Below, piece after piece: positions 45,169 through 56,162 of a DNA stretch of 64,000 bases. Under the pieces are notes generated by a model, which was given only the letters and a program-made list of their open reading frames with translations, ran no database searches and was not told the DNA's origin. Positions within the stretch are counted from its first letter, which is position 1. Each line of letters begins with the position of its first letter. This DNA comes from Pedococcus aerophilus (GTDB taxonomy: Bacteria > Actinomycetota > Actinomycetes > Actinomycetales > Dermatophilaceae): contig NZ_BAAARN010000001.1 in assembly GCF_039532215.1 (NCBI RefSeq), forward strand, positions 1,783,942 to 1,847,941. Reading direction: 5' to 3'. The position numbers were made by a program, and so were the translations under genes.

Positions 45169-46049
45169 CTTGTCACTCCGGCCTCGGGGTGCGTCGGCTC
45201 CGCCGCCGGGTCCACGATGCGGCTGCGCTGCCGGCCGAGCACGCCACCGTCGAGGGCGACGACGTCGCCGTGCCGAAGGTACGGCCGCGGCTCGGGCTGT
45301 CCCATCGCCACGCCGGCGGGAGTGCCGGTGATGACGAGGTCACCCGGCTCGAGGGTCATCAGGCGGCTCACGTACGCGAGGACCTCCCCCACCCCGAACA
45401 CCATGTCGTCGGTCGTCCCGTCCTGGCGCGGTTCGTCGTTCACGGACAGTCGCAGCCGCAGCGCCCCCGGGTCGCCGACCTCGTCGGGGGTGACGAGCCA
45501 CGGCCCCACCGGGCAGAACGTGTCGGCGGACTTGCCCTTGGTCCAGGTGCCGCCGTGGTCGAGCTGCATGGCGCGGTCGGAGACGTCGTGTGCGAGGACG
45601 TACCCCGCCACCGCCTCGAGCGCCCGGTCGGCGTCGGTCTCGTCGCGCAGGGTGCTTCCCAGGACGACGCCGAGCTCCACCTCGTAGTCGGTGCTCGTCG
45701 ACCCGGGCAGCATCCGGATGTCGTCGGTGGGCCCGCAGACCGAGGTGGTCGCCTTGAGGAACACCACCGGCTCGGTGGGCAGCGGCGCTCCCGCCTCGGC
45801 GGCGTGGTCGGCGTAGTTGAGCCCGATGCCGACGACCTTGCCCGGTCGCGGGATCGGTGCCCCGAAACGGAGTCCGACGTCCTGCGCCACCGGCCGGAGC
45901 GTCTCCCCGTCCACGGCCGCGGGCACCGCTGCGAGGTCACCGAGCAGCGCGTCGAGATCGCCGAGTCCGGTCAGCTCGAGCAGTCGACCGTCGTCGGACA
46001 CCACGACAGGTCGCTCCGCGCCGACAGCCCCGACCCTCGCGAACCTCAT
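45165..46049 (-). CDS. FAH-family hydrolase, possible ureidoglycolate lyase
   Basis: A 294-residue protein with an N-terminal extension (about 1-75) and a fumarylacetoacetate-hydrolase fold domain: [18 protein letters not shown], metal Glu in [11 protein letters not shown], Asp in [30 protein letters not shown] and [18 protein letters not shown] members cleave C-C or C-N bonds of small acids. Because it sits between glycerate kinase and allantoinase, with overlaps on both sides, release of glyoxylate from ureidoglycolate is a reasonable role, as FAH-type ureidoglycolate lyases are annotated in bacteria. This is inferred from context; no AllA-type lyase is in the window. Confidence 0.82.
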
Positions 46050-47194
46050 CGGGCACCCCCGAGGTGCTCGCGCGCGATCCTGGCCCCGAGTCGTTCGAGG
46101 AGCGGACCGGGCGCCTCCATCGCCTCCTGCTCGGAGGCCTCCCCGACGAGCGCGTATGCGGCGTCGATGCCGGCCGCCCTCAGGTCACCTTCGGTGAGCG
46201 AGACCCTTCCGGCCACCGCGACCACCGGGACCCCGACCTCCCGGGCTGCAGCGGCGACAGCGGCAGGAGCCTTGCCGTGCAACGTCTGCCGGTCCAGGGC
46301 ACCTTCGCCGGTGACGACGAGGGCTGCGCCCGGAAGGGCGTCGTGGAGCCCCGTCAGCTCGAAGACGAGCTCGGCCCCGGGTCGCGTCGTGGCGCCTGCG
46401 ACGGCCACGAGCCCGAAGCCGACACCTCCTGCCGCACCCGCCCCGGGGTCGTGCCGGTGGTCGGCACCGATGCTGGAGGCGACGAGGTCGGCCCAGCGGG
46501 CGAGAGCGGCGTCGAGGCGCTCCACGTCGTCGGGAGAGGCACCCTTCTGCGGCCCGTAGACGGCTGCGGCCCCACGCGAACCGGTGAGCGGGTTGTCGAC
46601 GTCGCAGGCGACGACGACCTCTGCACCGGCGAGGCCCGGGTGCAGACCGGACAGGTCGAGGGCCTCGGCGTCCTCGAGACCGAGTCCGCCCGGACCCACC
46701 TCGTGGCCGTCAGCCGTGGTGATGCGCGCTCCCAGCGCCTGGAGCAGGCCTGCGCCACCGTCGGTGCTGGCGCTGCCACCGATGCCGACGACGACCCGAC
46801 GGGCGCCGTCGTCGAGGGCAGCCGCGATGAGGTCGCCAGCTCCCCGGCTGGTCGCCGTGAGCGGCTGCCGACGCCCGTCGGGCAGGTGGTCGAGCCCGCA
46901 CACCTCGGCGAGCTCGACGACCGCCTCGGTGCCGCGGGCGCCATACGCAGCCTTGCGGTCCTCGCCCGTCGGACCGTGGGCGGGCACGGTGACCCGGACG
47001 AACCCGGCGGCCTCGGCCGCGGCGAGCGTGCCGTCCCCGCCGTCGGCGACCGGCACCGTGACCACCTCGAGGTCAGGGAGCACCGACCGCAGCCCGGTGG
47101 CCACGTGGGTGGCCACCGCGGCAGCGGTGAGGGTGCCTTTGAACTTGTCGGGGGCGATCACGACACGACGTGTCGGCGGGGCGGGGACGGTCAC
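46046..47194 (-). CDS. glxK: Glycerate 2-kinase (GlxK/GarK type)
   Basis: A 382-residue glycerate kinase of the class I family. Family features: IAPDKFKGTLTAAAVATHVATGL at the N-terminus, PVADGGDGTLAA, VVVGIGGSASTDGGAGLLQALGA, AEVVVACDVDNPL, FELTGL and VTGEGALDRQTLHGKAP, then GVPVVAVAGRV. It phosphorylates glycerate to 2-phosphoglycerate, closing the glycerate route from glyoxylate. Nine bp after the gcl stop and overlapping the FAH gene, it links the glyoxylate half of the operon to the allantoin half. Confidence 0.93.
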   Translation of the reverse strand: MTVPAPPTRRVVIAPDKFKGTLTAAAVATHVATGLRSVLPDLEVVTVPVADGGDGTLAAAEAAGFVRVTVPAHGPTGEDRKAAYGARGTEAVVELAEVCGLDHLPDGRRQPLTATSRGAGDLIAAALDDGARRVVVGIGGSASTDGGAGLLQALGARITTADGHEVGPGGLGLEDAEALDLSGLHPGLAGAEVVVACDVDNPLTGSRGAAAVYGPQKGASPDDVERLDAALARWADLVASSIGADHRHDPGAGAAGGVGFGLVAVAGATTRPGAELVFELTGLHDALPGAALVVTGEGALDRQTLHGKAPAAVAAAAREVGVPVVAVAGRVSLTEGDLRAAGIDAAYALVGEASEQEAMEAPGPLLERLGARIAREHLGGAR

Positions 47195-47203
47195 GGGCAG
47201 GCC

Positions 47204-48982
47204 TCAGTCCAGGTTGGCGAAGACGGCGGTCGGGGCATCGGCTCCCCCGTTGGCGAGCTCCTCGAACTCGGTGACGTTCGCGATGCTCTGGCCCATCGAG
47301 ACGTTGGTGACCCGCTCGAGGATGACCTCGACCACGACCGGGACGCGGTACTCCTGCGCCATCGCCTTGGCCTTCTCCAGCGCCGGCGCGATCTCCTCCG
47401 GGTCGAAGACGCGGATCGCCTTGCAGCCCAGGCCCTCGACGACCTTGACGTGGTCGACGCCGTAGCCGTTCAGCTCGGGAGCGTTGATGTTGTCGAAGGA
47501 CAGCTGGACGCAGTAGTCCATCTCGAACCCGCGCTGCGCCTGCCGGATCAGGCCGAGGTAGGCGTTGTTCACGAGGACGTGGATGTACGGGATGTTGAAC
47601 TGCGCACCGACCGCCAGCTCCTCGATCATGAACTGGAAGTCGTAGTCACCGGACAGCGCGACCACGGTCTCGTCGGGGACGGCCGTCGCGACGCCCAGGG
47701 CAGCGGGGACGGTCCAGCCGAGCGGTCCGGCCTGGCCGGCGTTGATCCAGTGGCGGTCCTTGTAGACGTGCAGCAGCTGGGCCGCCTGGATCTGGGACAG
47801 GCCGATCGTCGAGACGTACCGGACGTCGCGGCCGAAGGCGCGGTTCATCTCCTGGTAGACGCGCTGCGGCTTGATCGGCGTGACGTCGAAGTTTGTCTTG
47901 CGCCACAGGGTGCGCTTGCGCTGCTGGCAGGACTGCGCCCACTCGGTGCGGTCGCTCAGCAGGTTGGCATCGCGACGTTCACGGGCGACCTCGACGAAGA
48001 GCTCGAGGGCAGCCTTGGCGTCGCTGACGATGCTGTAGTCGGGGGCGAAGACGCGGCCGACCTGGGTGGGCTCGATGTCGACGTGGACGAAGGTGCGACC
48101 CTTCGTGTAGGTCTCGAGGTCGCCGGTGTGCCGGTTGGCCCAGCGGTTGCCGATGCCGAGGACGAAGTCCGCTTCGAGCATCGTCGCGTTGCCGTAGCGG
48201 TGGCTGGTCTGCAGTCCGACCATGCCGGCGTTGAGCTCGTGGTCGTCGGGGATGGTGCCCCAGCCCATGAGGGTCGGGACGACCGGCACCCCGGTCAGCT
48301 CGGCGAGCTCGACGAGCAGGGCCGCGGCGTCGGCGTTGATGACACCGCCCCCGGAGACGATGAGCGGCCTGGTGCTCGCCTCGAGCAGGTCGAGCGCCTT
48401 GCTCACCTGCGCCCGCGTCGCGGCCGGCTTGTAGACCGGCAGCGGCGCGTAGGTCTCGACGTCGAACTCGATCTCGGTCAGCTGGACGTCGATCGGCAGG
48501 TCGATGAGGACGGGCCCCGGACGCCCGGACCGCATGAGGTGGAACGCCTGCTGGAACGTGCCCGGCACCTGCGCCGCCTCGAGGACGGTGACCGCCATCT
48601 TGGTCAGCGGCTTGGCGATCGAGGAGATGTCGACAGCCTGGAAGTCCTCCTTGTGCAGCTTGGAGACCGGCGCCTGGCCGGTGATGCACAGGATCGGGAT
48701 CGAGTCCGCGCTGGCGGAGTAGAGCCCGGTGATCATGTCGGTGCCCGCCGGGCCGCTCGTGCCGATGCAGACGCCGATGTTGCCGGCCTTGGCGCGGGTG
48801 TAGCCCTCGGCCATGTGCGAGGCGCCCTCGACGTGCCGGGCGAGCGTGTGGTGGAGGCCGCCGTTGGTCTCCATCGCCTTGTAGAACGGGTTGATCGCCG
48901 CCCCGGGCAGGCCGAAGACGTTGGTCACCCCCTCCAGCTTGAGGATCTCGACGGCCGCTTGGGCCGCAGTCATGCGTGCCAT
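47204..48982 (-). CDS. gcl: Glyoxylate carboligase (tartronate-semialdehyde synthase)
   Basis: A 592-residue thiamine-diphosphate enzyme. N-terminal [13 protein letters not shown] and [18 protein letters not shown]: the Val after RH replaces the Glu found in other ThDP enzymes, the known hallmark of Gcl. Central FAD-type domain, then the ThDP motif [33 protein letters not shown]. It joins two glyoxylates to tartronate semialdehyde with loss of CO2. Upstream is garR (32-bp gap) and downstream glxK (9 bp), an order shared with other gcl operons, although hyi often follows gcl directly. Confidence 0.95.
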
Positions 48983-49014
48983 GGTGGTGCTCCTGGTCTT
49001 GACGAGGTCTGGGG

Positions 49015-49899
49015 TCAGTTGGCGAGCCGGCCGGACAGCCGCTCGACGCCGCGCAGCAGCGCGGAGTGGTCGAGTCCGCCGTCGCCGTTCGCGCGGGCGG
49101 AGGCCATCAGCTGGGCGACGAGGGCGCCGAGCGGTACGACGACCCCGGCCTCACGGGCGGCGGAGGTCACGATGCCCATGTCCTTGTGGTGCAGGTCGAT
49201 CCGGAAGCCCGGGGTGAAGTCGTGCTTGGCCATGTTGGCCCGCTTCTGCTCGAGCACCTTCGACCCGGCGAGCCCGCCGCCGAGGACGTCGAGGGCGGCC
49301 TCGAGGTCGACGTCGTAGGCGTCGAGGAAGGTGACGGCCTCGGCGAGGGCCTGGATGTTGGCCGCGACGATGAGCTGGTTGGCGGCCTTGACCGTCTGCC
49401 CCGCTCCGTTGCCGCCGACGTGCACGATGGTCTTGCCGACGACGTCGAACAGCGGCTTGGCCTCCTCGAAGTCCTTGCCGTCACCTCCCACCATGATCGA
49501 CAGGGCGGCGTTCTTCGCCCCGGCCTCGCCACCGGAGACGGGGGCGTCGAGCAGCCGGAAACCCTTGTCCTTGGCGGTCTTCGCGAGCTCTGCCGTGACG
49601 TCCGGGCGGATGGACGAGAAGTCGATGACGAGGGCGCCGGACCTGGCGTTCTCGAAGACCCCACCCTCGCCGGCGAGCACGTCCTGGACGTCAGGGCTGT
49701 CGGGCACCATCACGGCGACCACGTCGACGTCCTTGACGGCCTCGGCGATCGAGCCGGCCGCTCGGCCACCGGCGTCGACCAGCGGCTGGGTCTTGTCGGG
49801 GTGCAGGTTGTAGCCGACGACGTCGTGGCCGGCCTCCTGGAGGTGGACGGCCATGGGGCTGCCCATGATGCCGAGTCCGATGAAGGCGATGCTGGTCAT
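49015..49899 (-). CDS. garR: 2-hydroxy-3-oxopropionate (tartronate semialdehyde) reductase
   Basis: A 294-residue beta-hydroxyacid dehydrogenase. NAD(P)-binding [26 protein letters not shown] at the N-terminus, the substrate motif [22 protein letters not shown], and the catalytic Lys in [24 protein letters not shown]. It reduces tartronate semialdehyde to glycerate. It lies 27 bp downstream of hyi and 32 bp upstream of gcl. The names garR and glxR are both used for this enzyme. Confidence 0.93.
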
Positions 49900-49926
49900 G
49901 TCGTTCTCCTTGCTGGGGTCAGGTGG

Positions 49927-50757
49927 TCAGGCGGTGGCGGCGCGTCGTTCGCGCGGCAGCCAGGCGAAGCTCTCGGGAGTCGTCGTGGTGGTGGGCTTGT
50001 ACTCCAGGCCGACCCACCCGGCATACCCGCGCTGCGCGAGGTCCCCGAGGTGGCGCTGGAGGTCGAGGTCGCCGCTGCCGGGCTCGCCCCGGCCGGGGGC
50101 GTCGGCGATCTGGACGTGACCGGTGACGTCGACGTGGGCACGGATGGCTGCGTCGAGGTCGTCGCCGTTGGAGGCGAGGTGGAACAGGTCGAGCAGGAAG
50201 GCGACGTTGTCGGCGCCGGCCGCTCGGACGTCCTCGACGACCGACACCGCATCGGCTGCCGTCCGCAGCGGATAGGGCTTCGGGCCGCTGACCGACTCGA
50301 CGAGGACCGTCGCCCCGATGGTGGAGGCTGCCTTGGCCGCGGCGGCGATCGACTCACGGCCCAGCTCGTCCTGCTCCTGCGCCGAGGCGCCGTCGACCCG
50401 GTTGCCGAAGAGGGCGTTGAACGCCGAGGCCCCCAGCCGCTCGCCGATGCCGACGGCCACGTCCACGTTGTCGCGGAACTCCCTCACCCGGTCGGGGATC
50501 GACAGGACGCCGCAGTCGGGCCCGGCGAGGTCACCCGCGAAGAAGTTGAGGCCGACGAGCTGCACGCCCGCGTCCTGGACCGCCGAGACGAAGGAGTCGA
50601 CATCGCGGTCGGACGGGACGGGCTGGTCCGGCCAGGGCCACCAGAACTCGACGGCGTCGAACCCTGCCGCCTTGGCGGCAGCGGGGCGCTCGAGCAGCGG
50701 CAGCTCGCCGAAGAGGATCGAGCAGTTCACGAGGTAGCGCAGTCCGTGGTCAGTCAT
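49927..50757 (-). CDS. hyi: Hydroxypyruvate isomerase
   Basis: A 276-residue TIM-barrel protein of the Hyi/xylose-isomerase-like family. Start LRYLVNCSILFGELPLLERPAAAKAAGFDAVEFWWPW, active-site Glu in VLVESVSGPKPYPL, His/Asp in LDLFHLASNGDDLD and HVQIADAPGRGEPGSG, second Glu in GWVGLEYKP. It interconverts hydroxypyruvate and tartronate semialdehyde. It is the first gene of the hyi-garR-gcl-glxK run. AAGGACGCC precedes ATG 50757, and the 15-bp regulator motif lies 15 bp upstream, a position that would block initiation. Confidence 0.93.
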   Translation of the reverse strand: MTDHGLRYLVNCSILFGELPLLERPAAAKAAGFDAVEFWWPWPDQPVPSDRDVDSFVSAVQDAGVQLVGLNFFAGDLAGPDCGVLSIPDRVREFRDNVDVAVGIGERLGASAFNALFGNRVDGASAQEQDELGRESIAAAAKAASTIGATVLVESVSGPKPYPLRTAADAVSVVEDVRAAGADNVAFLLDLFHLASNGDDLDAAIRAHVDVTGHVQIADAPGRGEPGSGDLDLQRHLGDLAQRGYAGWVGLEYKPTTTTTPESFAWLPRERRAATA

Positions 50758-50917: not shown

Positions 50918-51244
50918 TCAGCTGCCCCGGTAGGTGGAGTAGCCGAACGGGTTGAGCAGCACGGGCACGTGGTAGTGCTGCGCCGCGTCGGAGATGGTGA
51001 AGACGACGACCACCTCGGGGTAGAACGCCTCGGTGTCGCGTGCCGCGAAGTAGGCGCCGGAGGCGAACCGCAGCCGGTAGTCGCCCGCCTCCAACCGGTC
51101 CGGGCCGATGGTGCCGACGCGACCGTCGCCGTCGGTCACTCCGTCTCCGATCGCGGTGCCGTCGAGGCCCTCGAGGACGACCCCGATCCCGGCGGCGGGC
51201 CGCCCCAGGCTGGTGTCGAGGACGTGCGTGGAGAGGGTGCCCAT
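50918..51244 (-). CDS. uraH: 5-hydroxyisourate hydrolase
   Basis: A 108-residue transthyretin-like protein. N-terminal LSTHVLDTSLGRPAAGI with the catalytic His, a central Arg-containing strand (DYRLRFASGAYFA), HYHVPVLLNPFGYSTYRGS at the C-terminus, the YRGS tetrapeptide being diagnostic for HIU hydrolases. It converts 5-hydroxyisourate from uricase to OHCU. The ATG shares bases with the uraD stop at 51244, so the two are coupled. The C-terminal stop is followed by 160 bp before hyi. Confidence 0.95.
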   Translation of the reverse strand: MGTLSTHVLDTSLGRPAAGIGVVLEGLDGTAIGDGVTDGDGRVGTIGPDRLEAGDYRLRFASGAYFAARDTEAFYPEVVVVFTISDAAQHYHVPVLLNPFGYSTYRGS

Positions 51245-51762
51245 CAGGCGACCACCTGTCGGAGTCGGAGCAGCGCGATCTCGCGGAGCTGGGTGACGGT
51301 CTCGGCGCGTTCGGCCTCGTCGTCGTTCTCGAGTCGGCGGCGGAGCTCGGCGAGGATCTCGGGGGCGGAGCGCCCGGCCGCCCGGATGAGGAAGACCCGG
51401 TCGAACCGCTCCTCGTATGCCGCGTTGCCGGCAGCGAGCTCGCGCGCCACCTCCGCGTCGGCCGGGTCGACCCCGGACTGCTCCTTGGCACTGAACGCGG
51501 CGTGGTGCTGCGGGCTCGACGCGCGCTCGCCGATCCGCGGGTGCCCGGCCAGGGCCGTCTCGAGCTCGGCCTCGTCGAGGTCCGCCGCCGCGGTGGTTGC
51601 GGTCTCCTCCAGAGCCGGCCACGCGGCATACGGGCGGCCGTCCCGGACGGTGTCGACCCAGCGGGGCACCGGCAGGCACGCGGCCAGCCGCTCCCCCACC
51701 TCGTCGGCGGGCAGGGAGTTGAAGTCCTCGATGCTCACTGACTGGCTCACTGACTGGCTCAC
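51244..51762 (-). CDS. uraD: OHCU decarboxylase, stand-alone
   Basis: A 172-residue protein if GTG 51762 is the start; this GTG overlaps the upstream permease stop (GTGA). Two further in-frame GTGs follow at 51750 and 51738 because of a 12-bp repeat that encodes VSQS units. The domain keeps the catalytic set of the family: His74 in AGHPRIGER and Glu94 in SAKEQSGV, with the RF/F strand (YEERFDRVFLIRAAG) and Arg-Leu-Glu-Asn near 143. It makes S-allantoin from OHCU. It is expected to be the active copy, in contrast to the domain fused to the permease just upstream. Confidence 0.92.
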   Translation of the reverse strand: MSQSVSQSVSIEDFNSLPADEVGERLAACLPVPRWVDTVRDGRPYAAWPALEETATTAAADLDEAELETALAGHPRIGERASSPQHHAAFSAKEQSGVDPADAEVARELAAGNAAYEERFDRVFLIRAAGRSAPEILAELRRRLENDDEAERAETVTQLREIALLRLRQVVA

Positions 51763-53693
51763 TGGCTCTCCACGAATCGGGTCCGGGCGGAGTGGATGGG
51801 GTTGGCGTCGGCGACGAGGTCGTCGAACCGGTACCCCGCGATCTTCGCAGCCTCGACCAGGGCAGCGGCGTGCTCCTGGGCGGGCGAGTTCTCCAGCCGC
51901 TGCCATCCCGAGCGCACCACCTGGTCGAACGAGTCGCGGTCGCGCACGCAGGTGACCAGGGGGAAGCCGAACCGGTCGCGGTACTGCGACGTGAGCTCGG
52001 ACAGCTCGCCGTAGGACTTCTCGTCGAGGCGGGTGAGTCCGAGGAAGGCCTGGTCGTGCAACGAGTCCTCACCCTCCCGGCCGTCGGCGACGCTCTCGGC
52101 ACCGAGGTCGGGGTAGGAGTCGATGAGCTGGCGCTGCTCGTCCTCGCCGGCCGTGTACAGCGCCTCCTGGAACGCGCGGCGCAGGTCGCTCGTGTCGGCG
52201 AACGGCCGTGACTCGTAGGCCCGTTCGGCCGCCCAGCGAGGGCCCTGGAACAGGCTGCCGAAGGTCTCGACGAACTGCTCACGGCTCATCTCGTTGACCT
52301 GGGAGAGGCGGACCAGCCGACCCGGCGCACCGGCGACGGCGGGGCCACGGCTCGAACCCACGTGGTGGAACAGGAAGTTCAGCACGATGGCGGTGATCGA
52401 GCCGAGCGTGATCCCGGAGCCGAGGATGATCTGGGCCCAGCTCGGGACGGCCTTCGCGACATCGGGCTGGGCGGTGACGTACATGGCCAGGCCGACGCTC
52501 GTCGCGACGATGACGACGTTGCGGTGGTCGTGGAAGTCGACGCGCGACAGGGTCTGGAAGCCGACGACCGCGACGGTCGCGAACATCGCCAGCGCGGCGC
52601 CTCCCAGGACCGGGTGCGGGATGCCCGCCACGATCGCCCCCGCCTTCGGGATGAGGCCGATGACGATCATGATCAGGCCGGCGGTCGCCACGACGTACCG
52701 GCTCTTCACGCGGGTGAGCCGCACGAGGCCGACGTTCTCGGCGAAGCAGGTGTAGGGGAAGGAGTTGAAGACGCCGCCGATGGTCGTGGCCAGGCCGTCG
52801 GCGCGCAGGGCGCGGGCGATGTCCTCGCGCCCGATCCGCTTCTCGACGATCTCGCCGGTGGCGAAGACGTCACCAGTCGTCTCGACCGCGGTGATGAGCA
52901 TGACGACGATCATCGAGATGATCGCGGCGACGGAGAACTTCGGCCAACCGAAGTGGAAGGGCGCGGTGAAGCCGATCCACCCGGACCCGGCCACGCTGTC
53001 GAAGTGCGCGTCGCCGAGCAGCCAGGCGATGAGCGTGCCGGCGACCAGTCCGATGAGGACGGCCACGGTGGCCATGAAGCCCTTGAAGATCCGCTGGATC
53101 GCGACGATCAGCGCCAGGGTGCCGAGCGCGTACGCGAGGTTGCGGCCGCTGGTCGGGTCGAGCGAGGGGCCCGCCCCACCCGCGGCGTCGGCCGCGGCGA
53201 CCGGAAGCAGGGCGAGGCCGATGATCGTGATGACCGAGCCGGTGACGACCGGTGGGAAGAACCGGATGAGCCGACTGAAGTACGGCGCGATGAGGAAGGT
53301 GAACAACCCCGCCACGATGACGGCGCCGTAGATGACGAGCAGGCCGTCGGTGCCACCGCCCGCCGCCAGGCCGATCGCGATCATCGGCGAGACCGCCGTG
53401 AACGTCACGCCCTGGAGCAGCGGCAGCCGCACGCCGACCTTCCAGAAGCCGACCGACTGGATGATCGACGCTATCCCGCAGGTGAACAGGTCGGCGTTGA
53501 TGAGGTGGATGAGCTCCTGCTGGTTGAGCCCGATGGAGTTGGCGAGCAGGATCGGCACGATGACGGCGCCCGCGTAGAACGCGAGGACGTGCTGGAAGCC
53601 GTAGATCGCGAGCTTGGGGACGGGCAGCACCTCGTCGACGGGGTGCCGGGAAGGACGCTGGCTGGACTGCGGTGGGGCGGTGGCTGCACTCAT
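51759..53693 (-). CDS. Urate/xanthine NCS2 permease fused to an OHCU decarboxylase-like domain
   Basis: A continuous 644-residue frame. Residues 24-445 are an NCS2 purine permease (YGFQHVLAFYAGAVIVPILL, the TM8 signature ETTGDVFATGEIV with Glu271, NxGLVRLTRVKSR near 320-332). Residues about 465-628 match the OHCU decarboxylase family along their length (EQFVETFGSLFQGPRWAAERAY, RPFADTSDLRRAF, QYRDRFGFPLVTCVRD, RLENSPAQEHAAALVEAAKIAGYRFDDLV). At the active site the family His is Tyr527 (DSYPDLG) and the Glu is Asp547 (SLHDQ). The fused domain therefore looks like a binding or docking module facing the cytoplasm, or a weak enzyme. The active uraD follows with a 4-bp overlap. Confidence 0.9.
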   Translation of the reverse strand: MSAATAPPQSSQRPSRHPVDEVLPVPKLAIYGFQHVLAFYAGAVIVPILLANSIGLNQQELIHLINADLFTCGIASIIQSVGFWKVGVRLPLLQGVTFTAVSPMIAIGLAAGGGTDGLLVIYGAVIVAGLFTFLIAPYFSRLIRFFPPVVTGSVITIIGLALLPVAAADAAGGAGPSLDPTSGRNLAYALGTLALIVAIQRIFKGFMATVAVLIGLVAGTLIAWLLGDAHFDSVAGSGWIGFTAPFHFGWPKFSVAAIISMIVVMLITAVETTGDVFATGEIVEKRIGREDIARALRADGLATTIGGVFNSFPYTCFAENVGLVRLTRVKSRYVVATAGLIMIVIGLIPKAGAIVAGIPHPVLGGAALAMFATVAVVGFQTLSRVDFHDHRNVVIVATSVGLAMYVTAQPDVAKAVPSWAQIILGSGITLGSITAIVLNFLFHHVGSSRGPAVAGAPGRLVRLSQVNEMSREQFVETFGSLFQGPRWAAERAYESRPFADTSDLRRAFQEALYTAGEDEQRQLIDSYPDLGAESVADGREGEDSLHDQAFLGLTRLDEKSYGELSELTSQYRDRFGFPLVTCVRDRDSFDQVVRSGWQRLENSPAQEHAAALVEAAKIAGYRFDDLVADANPIHSARTRFVESQ

Positions 53694-53817: not shown

Positions 53818-55200
53818 TCACCGCTCGCGCAGCGCTCGGGCCTGGTCCTTGCTGACCATGACGGGTGGGGCGCCGGACACGACGGACGGTGAGCGGCCCA
53901 CCCCGCCGCGCATGACGTTGAAGAACAGGTTGAGCAGGACCGCGACCAGGCTGGCCGCGCTGATGCCGGAGTGGAAGATCGTGGCGAACCACTCGGGGAA
54001 CTGGTCGTAGAACGACGGGACCGCGATGGGGATGATGCCGAAGCCGAGGGCGGTGGCGACCAGGACGATGTTGAGGTTGCCGTCGTAGTCGACCTTGGAG
54101 AGCGTGCGGATGCCGCTCGCCGCGACCGAGCCGAACAAGATGATGCCGGCGCCGCCGAGCACGGGCTGCGGGACCGCGGCCACGACGCGACCGAGGACCG
54201 GCAGCAGGCCCAGGACGACCAGGACCGACCCTCCGGCGGAGACGACCCAACGGCTCTTGATGCCGGTGATGGCGACGACGCCGACGTTCTGGGCGAACGC
54301 GCTCGCCGGGAAGCTGTTGAACACCGGGGCGATCGCCGTCGCGAGCATGTCTGCCCGCAGGCCGTCACCAACCCGTCGCGGGCTGGTCTCGGTGCCGACG
54401 ATCTCGCCGACCGCGAGGATGTCCGCGGTGGTCTCGGTCATGATCACGAGGATCACGATGGTCATCGAGATGATCGCGCCGACCTGGAAGACCGGGGCAC
54501 CGAACTGGAACGGTGTCGGGAAGGCGGCCCAGCTCCCGGTGCCGACGCCGTCGAAGTCGGCCTTGCCGATGACGAGGGCGAAGACCGTGCCGACGACGAT
54601 CCCGAGCAGGATCGACAACCGGCTGACCGGCCCCTGCACGAGGCGCGAGAGCAGCAGGATGACGAGGAGGGTGAAGGCGGCCAGGCCGATGTTGCCCATC
54701 GAGCCCCAGTCGGCAGCCTTGTCGTTGCCGCCCATGGCCCAGCGGACCGCGACGGGAAAGAGCGACAGGCCGATGACGGTGATGATCGTGCCGTTGACCA
54801 CGGGCGGGAAGAACCGCACGACCTGGCTGAAGAACGGGCTGATGGCGAGTCCGACGAGGCCGGCCACGATGATCGAGCCGAAGACGGCCGGCAGTCCTCC
54901 GTCGCCGGTCGCGACCGCCGTCATGGTGGAGACGCTCGCGAACGAGATCCCCTGCACGAGCGGCAGCTGCGAGCCGAAGAACGGGATGCCCACGCTCTGC
55001 AGGATCGTCGCGAGCCCGCTGACGAAGAGGGCGGCCGAGACGAGCAGGGCGATCTCGGTGCCGGACAGGCCGGCCGCTCCCCCGACGATCAGGGGCGGGG
55101 CGATGACGCCGCCGTACATCGTGAGGATGTGCTGGACGCCGTAGGCGTAGGTCGGGCCGAGCTTGAGCCGCTCGTCCTCGGGTCGCGTCGTCGTTGACAC
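53818..55200 (-). CDS. NCS2-family purine (urate/xanthine) permease
   Basis: A 460-residue permease with about 14 membrane segments and the NCS2 signatures: AYGVQHILTMYGGVIAPPLIVG (TM1), QLPLVQGISFASVSTM (TM3), VIMTETTADILAVGEIVG (TM8 Glu) and FAQNVGVVAITGIKSRWV (TM10 region). It has no C-terminal fusion, unlike the neighbouring permease. It lies between uricase (23-bp gap) and the fusion permease (124-bp gap), so urate or xanthine is the likely cargo. Two permeases side by side suggests division between xanthine and urate, or different affinities. Confidence 0.9.
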   Translation of the reverse strand: MSTTTRPEDERLKLGPTYAYGVQHILTMYGGVIAPPLIVGGAAGLSGTEIALLVSAALFVSGLATILQSVGIPFFGSQLPLVQGISFASVSTMTAVATGDGGLPAVFGSIIVAGLVGLAISPFFSQVVRFFPPVVNGTIITVIGLSLFPVAVRWAMGGNDKAADWGSMGNIGLAAFTLLVILLLSRLVQGPVSRLSILLGIVVGTVFALVIGKADFDGVGTGSWAAFPTPFQFGAPVFQVGAIISMTIVILVIMTETTADILAVGEIVGTETSPRRVGDGLRADMLATAIAPVFNSFPASAFAQNVGVVAITGIKSRWVVSAGGSVLVVLGLLPVLGRVVAAVPQPVLGGAGIILFGSVAASGIRTLSKVDYDGNLNIVLVATALGFGIIPIAVPSFYDQFPEWFATIFHSGISAASLVAVLLNLFFNVMRGGVGRSPSVVSGAPPVMVSKDQARALRER

Positions 55201-55223: not shown

Positions 55224-56162
55224 TCAGCAGAAGCCCGGGACGGTGAGCCAGGCGTCACCTGGGTCGCTGCCGTCCTCGCGCTGCACGGTGGCCTCGATGA
55301 GGCCGTAGGGGCGGTCCGCGGCGATGAAGACCTCACCGGGGTTGTCGAGCCCGAAGGGCGACAGGTCGACGAGGAAGTGGTGCTTGTTCGGGGCGGAGAA
55401 CTTGATCTCCGCGACCTCGGGGTGGGCGGCGAGCACCGCGGACCCCATGGCGTAGAGGCTCTCCTGCAGCGCGCGACTGTAGGTGGTCGCGAAGGTCTCG
55501 AGCATCACCTGGCGGATGTCGTCGAACGACTTGTTCCAGTCGGTGCCCGACGTCACCGCGTCGTCCTCGTAGCGCCAACGGGCCACCAGCGAGGTCGCGA
55601 GGATGCGGTCGTCGGTCTCCTGCAGGGTCGTGTACTCGTCCTTGAGGAAGCCCTTGAACTCCGAGCCGGTCGACTTGAGGACGACGAGGTCCTTGACCCC
55701 GGAGACGACCCAGGCGCGCGTGGTCGCGTTGCCCTGCTCGTCCTTCTCACCGCTGCGCTGGCGGGTGACGACCGTCGTGCGCACCTCTCCACCGCGCTTG
55801 ACGAAGGCGTGGTCGTGGCCGGCGCCCCCGACGTCGATGCGGTCCCATGCGTACTCCTCGACCTCGACGCGGCTCGCGTCGGCGGCGGGCGTCACGGCCA
55901 GGAACCGGTCACCGAGGGTGAGCGCGTAGTCCTCGGGAGAGGTGACCCCGTGCTCCTTGGCGAAGGCGAACGCGGTGTTCTTCTGGGTGTCGGTCGGCAG
56001 GACGTTGGCCTGGTCGCCGGTCTCGTGGGCCTCACGGAAGTCGCCGCGCAGGGCGGTCGAGACGTTGAGGTCCCGGATCTCGTGGCGGGCGGTGTCGCGG
56101 TAGATCCGCACGACGCGGTTCTCCGCCTTGCCGTACTGGTTGGGTCCGAGGACGAAGCTCAT
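55224..56162 (-). CDS. Uricase (urate oxidase)
   Basis: A 312-residue cofactor-free urate oxidase of two T-fold domains. Recognisable parts: LGPNQYGKAENRVVRIYRD (catalytic Lys), VLPTDTQKNTAFAFAKEHG (catalytic Thr), AWDRID, VVSGVKDLVVLKSTGSEFKGFLKDEYTTL, and SAPNKHHFLVDLSPFGLDNPGEVFIAADRPYGLIEATV (NKHHF His, as in the Lys-Thr-His relay). It oxidises urate to 5-hydroxyisourate. It heads the run uricase, permease, fusion permease, uraD, uraH. Two regulator-motif copies lie 157-192 bp upstream. Confidence 0.95.
   Translation of the reverse strand: MSFVLGPNQYGKAENRVVRIYRDTARHEIRDLNVSTALRGDFREAHETGDQANVLPTDTQKNTAFAFAKEHGVTSPEDYALTLGDRFLAVTPAADASRVEVEEYAWDRIDVGGAGHDHAFVKRGGEVRTTVVTRQRSGEKDEQGNATTRAWVVSGVKDLVVLKSTGSEFKGFLKDEYTTLQETDDRILATSLVARWRYEDDAVTSGTDWNKSFDDIRQVMLETFATTYSRALQESLYAMGSAVLAAHPEVAEIKFSAPNKHHFLVDLSPFGLDNPGEVFIAADRPYGLIEATVQREDGSDPGDAWLTVPGFC

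Follow-up and report, generated by a model that had tools for sequence, protein, structure and literature searches.

Fusion of an NCS2 purine permease to an OHCU decarboxylase-like domain without the catalytic histidine in Pedococcus aerophilus

We analysed a 64,000-nucleotide stretch of the Pedococcus aerophilus genome (contig NZ_BAAARN010000001.1, positions 1,783,942 to 1,847,941; hereafter the window), in which a single gene joins an NCS2 purine permease to a domain of the 2-oxo-4-hydroxy-4-carboxy-5-ureidoimidazoline (OHCU) decarboxylase family. The fused domain has lost the catalytic His of that family and persists in related genomes in which no urate pathway was detected. With somewhat better than even confidence, we regard it as a pseudoenzyme that, after fusion and loss of the His, took on a regulatory or structural role in the transporter on its cytosolic side. 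An NCS2 permease gene neighbouring uraD would have become fused to the OHCU decarboxylase domain, which would then have lost the catalytic His (to Tyr, rarely Phe) and loosened the catalytic Glu. As a pseudoenzyme module intrinsic to the transporter and located in the cytosol, the domain may since have been retained to tune or stabilise the permease, much as the STAS domain acts on SLC26/SulP carriers.

The fusion gene is read on the minus strand, starts with ATG at 53693, ends with TGA at 51759 and encodes a protein of 644 amino acids. Its permease part (residues 24-445; 52359..53624, minus strand) matched Xan_ur_permease (PF00860; residues 27-411, 358.9 bits against a cut-off of 27), pbuX (TIGR03173; residues 31-443, 523.4 bits against 414.15) and TIGR00801 (residues 24-440, 371.8 bits against 291.8). 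The motif columns QH (Q34-H35), E271, D299 and E319-N-V-G (N320, G322) were conserved; Q34-H35, E271, D299, N320 and G322 are what we take to be the key polar residues of NCS2/SLC23 carriers. The part therefore belongs to NCS2/SLC23 by both profile score and polar residues. A linker of low model confidence with conserved glycines follows (residues 446-462; 52308..52358, minus strand), in which G446, G450 and A452-G455 were conserved in 83 to 87 of the 87 rows of the window's clade. The OHCU decarboxylase-like domain (residues 465-628; 51810..52301, minus strand) matched OHCU_decarbox (PF09349; residues 467-623, 136.2 bits against a cut-off of 24) and UHCUDC (TIGR03164; residues 469-626, 113.2 bits against 96.25). 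Thus, both parts exceeded curated Pfam and NCBIfam cut-offs, in agreement with the original prediction of one frame holding an NCS2 permease and a full OHCU domain. Pfam reported PF00860 and PF09349 only, and no STAS match to the protein was found at an E-value of 0.001.

Structures were predicted using two sets of 53 and 28 rows. The domain alone was predicted with a mean predicted local distance difference test score (pLDDT) of 90.6 and an intact fold, and the best PDB match of the model was the OHCU decarboxylase 2o70 (template modelling scores 0.84/0.94, root mean square deviation 1.5 Å). The domain search and the predicted model thus bore out the OHCU decarboxylase fold expected for this part. 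The model of the whole protein had a mean pLDDT of 82.2 and a predicted template modelling score of 0.66, with a disordered end. The domain presumably lies in the cytosol.

The catalytic columns of the domain were examined by alignment. Tyr527 (codon 52113..52115, minus strand) stands in the catalytic His column and Asp547 (52053..52055, minus strand) in the catalytic Glu column, as originally proposed; Tyr527, Asp547 and Arg622 align with chain positions 67, 87 and 161 of the zebrafish OHCU decarboxylase 2o70. We take His67, Glu87 and Arg161 of the zebrafish enzyme to be its catalytic residues, the positions alone coming from the alignment; PMC2834698, consulted on these residues, added nothing useful. 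Domain rows were reduced from 249 to 217 by dropping seven loci (window duplicates or truncated loci of the same genus) and then identical rows. Fused domains accounted for 114 rows, and stand-alone domains for 24 (TIGR03164 type) and 74 (the other UraD type); the window's domain was the reference and is not counted in the 114. In the fused rows, the His column was occupied by Tyr (110), Phe (4) and never His, whereas His was present in 24/24 stand-alone rows of the same type and in 73/74 of the other UraD type (one gap). The Glu column contained Asp in 101 fused rows, Glu in 10, Val in 2 and Thr in 1, against Glu in 98/98 stand-alone rows; these letters depend on the alignment because the column adjoins a loop of variable length, and an earlier alignment gave more non-acidic letters. 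Conservation across genera therefore held for the Tyr, and the Glu column was looser. Arg599 (51897..51899, minus strand) was Arg in 114/114 fused rows, and Arg622 (51828..51830, minus strand), opposite 2o70 chain position 161, in 113/114. The domain accordingly has the profile, the fold and the Arg at position 161 of an OHCU decarboxylase, and does not have the catalytic His and Glu. The view of the domain as a pseudoenzyme-like module on a transporter gained support, as all sampled fused domains have another residue in place of the His and none of the sampled stand-alone domains does. Judged from these residues, the domain would have no decarboxylase activity. Two genomes (G657 and G658, reached via the Mycobacterium loci L042 and L044) carry a second fused copy with Phe527 (L197, L198), which coexists with a Tyr-type copy in each.

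We surveyed the distribution of the fusion at several taxonomic levels. A contig scan with the whole protein confirmed 172 relatives, of which the best 80 loci were kept; these were found with patterns from the window protein and lean to near relatives. The best 80 all come from Actinomycetes and represent 24 named genera in 12 families and 6 orders, with no genus given for 5 loci; L097 and L099 are defective, owing to N or a broken frame. The fusion was present in 5/5 genomes of the same genus examined. At the order level, at least 30 of 297 genomes carry it (Pfam search and sequence checks), and at the phylum level at least 12 of 396 have the fused frame; for 11 of these the sequence was checked, and for the remaining one (G805) just the length of the frame. 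At the class level, 3/246 genomes matched across both parts of a whole-fusion profile (E up to 1e-60) in a search scoring at most five candidates per genome, and every other listed match stopped at profile position 469 or before. The distribution is wide but patchy. Because 80 loci span both parts and all five same-genus genomes have the fusion, it is neither a chance event nor an artefact. The concern that an assembly or frame error had joined two genes was thus put to rest by the survey of relatives: frames with both parts occur at many loci in named genomes and complete plasmids, nothing was found in favour of an artefact, and we rejected this reading, whose probability we regard as negligible.

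Two plasmids illustrate the range of the fusion. That of Rubrobacter radiotolerans encodes a 665-amino-acid fusion (L201, 5001-6998) with Tyr at the His place, which is annotated as uraD, likely a misannotation. Pathway reconstructions may consequently credit such a genome with a probably inactive decarboxylase. Family code f69 most likely corresponds to Rubrobacteraceae, because genome G744 of this family has a protein identical in every letter to that of R. radiotolerans. On the plasmid of Rhodococcus qingshengii, the genes for the fusion, uraD, uraH and uricase are consecutive, and the His column of the fused domain was read by eye as Phe.

We then compared the fusion with the urate pathway content of the genomes, using 45 of the 80 loci. 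In the wider clade of the window, 45/45 genomes examined had uricase together with one or more further OHCU matches, and a separate uraD-like frame was found at 35/80 loci within the stretch examined around the fusion. A derived clade (support 99 in the quick tree described below) comprises 20 genomes of the order-level family codes f3, f6 and f12, rated 99-100% complete. Uricase and UraH were each detected in 1 of these 20 and a second OHCU gene in 2; none of the three was detected in 18/20. The fused domains of the derived clade keep the Tyr, Arg599 and Arg622 in 20/20, and the residue after the Glu column drifts. Position 319 of the permease is Gln in 18/18 rows of the derived clade versus Glu in 87/87 rows of the window's clade. 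The domain has thus outlived the urate pathway, as far as these three families can show; no search covered other enzymes that oxidise urate. No other result speaks as strongly for a role of the domain in the transporter, rather than in OHCU turnover or the docking of enzymes, as its retention where the pathway was not detected. The XPRT family was above the cut-off in 0/25 genomes, and the substrate in the derived clade therefore cannot be argued from salvage genes. No shared purine operon was seen by eye around the derived-clade fusions at seven loci.

These results bear on the earlier idea that the domain docks uricase, UraH and UraD. Such a platform would hold the three enzymes at the membrane and channel urate as it enters, and it would suit the wider clade, with its uricase and further OHCU matches in all 45 genomes, the uraD-like frames at 35 loci, and the adjoining fusion, uraD, uraH and uricase genes in the window and on the Rhodococcus plasmid. 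As a general function, however, it does not fit the 18/20 derived-clade genomes in which no partner was detected, an absence that also argues against OHCU decarboxylation. It is further disfavoured by the UraD of the window, which is of the distant TIGR03180 type, the fused domain being of the TIGR03164 type. We therefore regard docking as improbable. Sensing of OHCU or allantoin, likewise suggested at first, is unlikely where the pathway is absent, and sensing of another ligand is conceivable.

His608 (51870-51872, minus strand), next to Glu607, marks the most frequent His column of the fused domains (65% of 114 rows). It was present in 70/85 rows of the window's wider clade, in 4/20 derived-clade rows and in 0/9 fusions outside the class; the stand-alone rows lack it altogether. 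From this pattern, His608 cannot underlie an activity shared by all fusions, and no displaced His extends over the whole clade. A displaced but working His/Glu pair, the alternative raised with the original prediction, thus fails for the clade as a whole and does not fully fail for the window's own clade. We also considered that the domain may still be an enzyme, decarboxylating OHCU slowly through rearranged residues (Tyr527/Asp547 or His608) or catalysing another reaction. The retained fold and both Args, the Glu in 10/114 fused rows, the His608 found in the window's clade and not in stand-alone rows, and the uraD annotation of one Rubrobacter fusion would be compatible with this. On the other hand, Phe takes the place of Tyr in 4/114 rows, the Glu column varies to Val and Thr, and His608 is absent in 16/20 derived-clade and 9/9 outside-class rows. 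Retained activity would also have to be reconciled with the further OHCU matches in 45/45 wider-clade genomes, whose residues were checked only within the examined loci, and with the pathway being undetected in 18/20 derived-clade genomes. We judge retained catalysis to be at least as improbable as docking.

As a control, we examined OHCU domains fused to other proteins. Eighteen loci were hand-picked for long frames around the OHCU domain among the class-level matches listed; all 18 keep the His and Glu, and 14 of them are allantoicase-UraD fusions by eye. A nineteenth OHCU copy (L225), beside a permease fusion, also has both residues, as do three loci (L191-L193) with OHCU in one frame with uricase; L224 gave no relevant match. 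We take uricase-OHCU fusions to exist in Bacillus as well. No permease fusion keeping the His was found among the rows examined. Because the allantoicase and uricase fusions keep the residues, His loss in this sample goes with fusion to the permease and not with fusion in general. Fusion as such was rejected as the cause of the His loss, given the 18/18 long-frame loci.

Phylogenetic trees of the domain were calculated from 102 of the 217 rows (quick tree) and from 62 of those 102, hand-chosen (careful tree). The quick tree placed the fused rows on one side of a branch with a support of 86 in the Shimodaira-Hasegawa-like approximate likelihood ratio test, and the stand-alone rows of the same type formed one group at 80. 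In the careful tree, calculated without both catalytic columns, the fused rows (35 of 62) again lay on one side of a branch (100/96.6); the stand-alone rows of the same type required two changes and so did not form one group. The two trees disagree on where exactly the fused clade joins the stand-alone rows. Between the fused domains and the other UraD type lie the stand-alone TIGR03164-type domains, most of them from f69. The fused domain is thus likely of single origin as a domain, judging from these alignments. Recent local decay of one copy was also considered and rejected, as the residue loss is clade-wide, the fused domains form one clade and purifying selection acts on them.

The living genomes also hint at the order of events. 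In one f69 locus (L195), the permease and a His-type uraD adjoin as separate genes; second copies at L185 and L186 show the same permease-uraD order, followed by uricase and uraH. Plasmids of Deinococcus and Priestia have the permease-uraD order too, with the His and Glu kept by eye. These adjoining, unfused genes point to a gene neighbourhood that preceded the fusion. Among nine fusions outside the class (f69 and f71), the His is gone in all nine and the Glu survives in four, which suggests that the His was lost before the Glu.

We estimated selection from the ratio of non-synonymous to synonymous substitution rates (dN/dS). The fused domain gave values of 0.07-0.38 in seven comparisons, indicating purifying selection, the permease part 0.04-0.18 in the same number of comparisons, and the separate uraD 0.28-0.33 in three. 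The constraint on the domain is below that on the permease and about equal to that on the separate uraD enzyme. Alternatively, the domain might bind no ligand and act solely as an inert stabiliser or a clamp on the dimer, retained for folding or dimerisation. According to PMC6308229, NCS2 proteins probably function as homodimers, and PMC6497670 describes SLC23 dimers; many of the conserved domain positions are common to stand-alone domains of the same type, and unfused permease relatives exist. Against this stands the conservation of Tyr527 (110/114), Arg599 (114/114) and Arg622 (113/114), which look like a constrained pocket; that they line one pocket was inferred from the alignment only. We consider a purely inert clamp doubtful. 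More tentatively than the general pseudoenzyme proposal, and more readily than the inert clamp, we suggest that the dead site, consisting of the Tyr and two Args, might bind a cytosolic purine or purine-derived metabolite and gate the NCS2 elevator. If so, a metabolic enzyme would have turned into the sensory domain of a transporter.

Several observations weigh against a regulatory or structural role of the pseudoenzyme domain. The effect on transport would follow by analogy with STAS, and the regulatory step rests on that analogy. Residues 441-460 of the full-length model have a pLDDT of only 52-59, and this weak linker means that the model does not fix how the domain is oriented towards the membrane part. 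In 7/7 comparisons, the permease part evolves more slowly than the domain. For the permease alignment, we left out identical rows, the duplicate of the window and rows with fewer than 380 aligned residues; in the resulting tree, the fused permeases did not form one group (3 changes). Three f69 fusions (L181, L183 and L184) lie among unfused permeases in that tree, and their OHCU domains group with the other fused domains. So the domain was lost, gained again or exchanged in the f69 lineage. Close permease relatives without the domain were found (651 bits, profile positions 7-446), and the domain is therefore not needed for transport as such. His608 is common in the window's clade and may have a role there, and in the window's own operon a role in the urate pathway is possible.

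We next describe the surroundings of the fusion in the window; all features are on the minus strand. The C-terminal tail of the fusion protein, ANPIHSAR (residues 630-637; 51783..51806), was recognised by comparing rows of fusions. The pattern ANPIxxAR is well kept in the Actinomycetes fusions, altered in part of the derived clade, and absent from the nine fusions outside the class Actinomycetes and from the stand-alone rows shown. Directly downstream lies a stand-alone uraD of the TIGR03180 type (51244..51762; reading frame and profile match), which retains His74 and Glu94, as the original prediction stated. That prediction also held the two genes to be translationally coupled. The first possible start of uraD, a GTG, does overlap the TGA of the fusion, and two more GTGs lie 12 and 24 nucleotides downstream. 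This is because a 12-nucleotide unit, gtgagccagtca, is tandemly repeated at 51730-51765, spanning the fusion stop and the uraD start, and yields three possible GTG starts. Close coupling is thus plausible from the letters, with any of the three GTGs a candidate start.

The gene for uraH (5-hydroxyisourate hydrolase; 50918..51244) was assigned by a PF00576 match and its reading frame. The uricase gene (55224..56162) was recognised by eye and reading frame, not from a family profile, and is 86-96% identical to matching frames in three genomes of the same genus. With uricase, uraD and uraH adjoining, the window contains a urate catabolic operon. A second, unfused NCS2 permease with the motif AQNVG (53818..55200; sequence and reading frame) sits between uricase and the fusion. 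The operon thus has two NCS2 carriers that differ at the E319 motif position (Gln versus Glu). Downstream, at 46046-50757, frames resembling by eye those of hydroxypyruvate isomerase, tartronate semialdehyde reductase, glyoxylate carboligase and glycerate kinase suggest an extension of the cluster towards the use of glyoxylate.

PMC4617892 deals with Mycobacterium smegmatis, in which the xanthine/uracil permease msmeg_1293 is followed, by gene number, by OHCU decarboxylase, transthyretin and uricase genes, all of them, with msmeg_1293, raised under nitrogen limitation. Among the papers listed in searches of the open-licence PMC literature, we recognised none that describes an NCS2-OHCU fusion, and the words 'fusion' and 'C-terminal' do not occur in the main text of the NAT/NCS2 classification paper (PMC6308229). 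SLC23/NCS2 carriers are described in PMC6497670 as being without carboxy-terminal domains of the regulatory kind seen in SLC26; the fusion clade is a clear exception to that description. Its evolutionary path is partly readable in living genomes, from neighbouring genes through fusion and His loss to the absence of the pathway in the derived clade. The clade also offers a direct way into the question of how elevator transporters come under the control of a soluble domain. If the dead site does bind a metabolite and gate the carrier, the 7+7 fold would have acquired a STAS-like control module for a second time and independently, one kept for its own sake after the loss of the urate pathway.

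Finally, we compared the fusion with known systems. The fused domain resembles UraD of the TIGR03164 type (zebrafish 2o70 and Agrobacterium Atu2327, 2o8i) in fold, family score and the Arg at 161; unlike UraD, it has no catalytic His, has mostly replaced the Glu, is joined to a permease and is present without a detected pathway. The entire 24-445 part, with the family motifs, is like PbuX-type NCS2/NAT (SLC23) xanthine/urate permeases, to which the fusion adds a C-terminal soluble domain. As with other OHCU fusions (allantoicase-UraD, and uricase-OHCU at L191-L193), an OHCU domain is joined to a purine-pathway protein; unlike the NCS2 fusion, 14/14 allantoicase-like fusions (by eye) and the three uricase fusions keep the His and Glu. 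SulP transporters, of the same fold class, occur fused to or beside carbonic anhydrase, and the fusion was read as support for a functional link (PMC6458275); the NCS2-OHCU case is similar in that the enzyme is also found adjoining and unfused, and differs in the loss of the catalytic His. According to PMC6497670, SLC26/SulP proteins share the 7+7 inverted-repeat fold with SLC23 and bear a regulatory STAS domain right after the last helix, the deletion of which impairs SLC26 transport. The soluble domain of the fusion occupies the same place, but is of unrelated ancestry and derives from a metabolic enzyme. The fusion is thus not a member of SLC26/SulP with STAS, although its domain may work like STAS.

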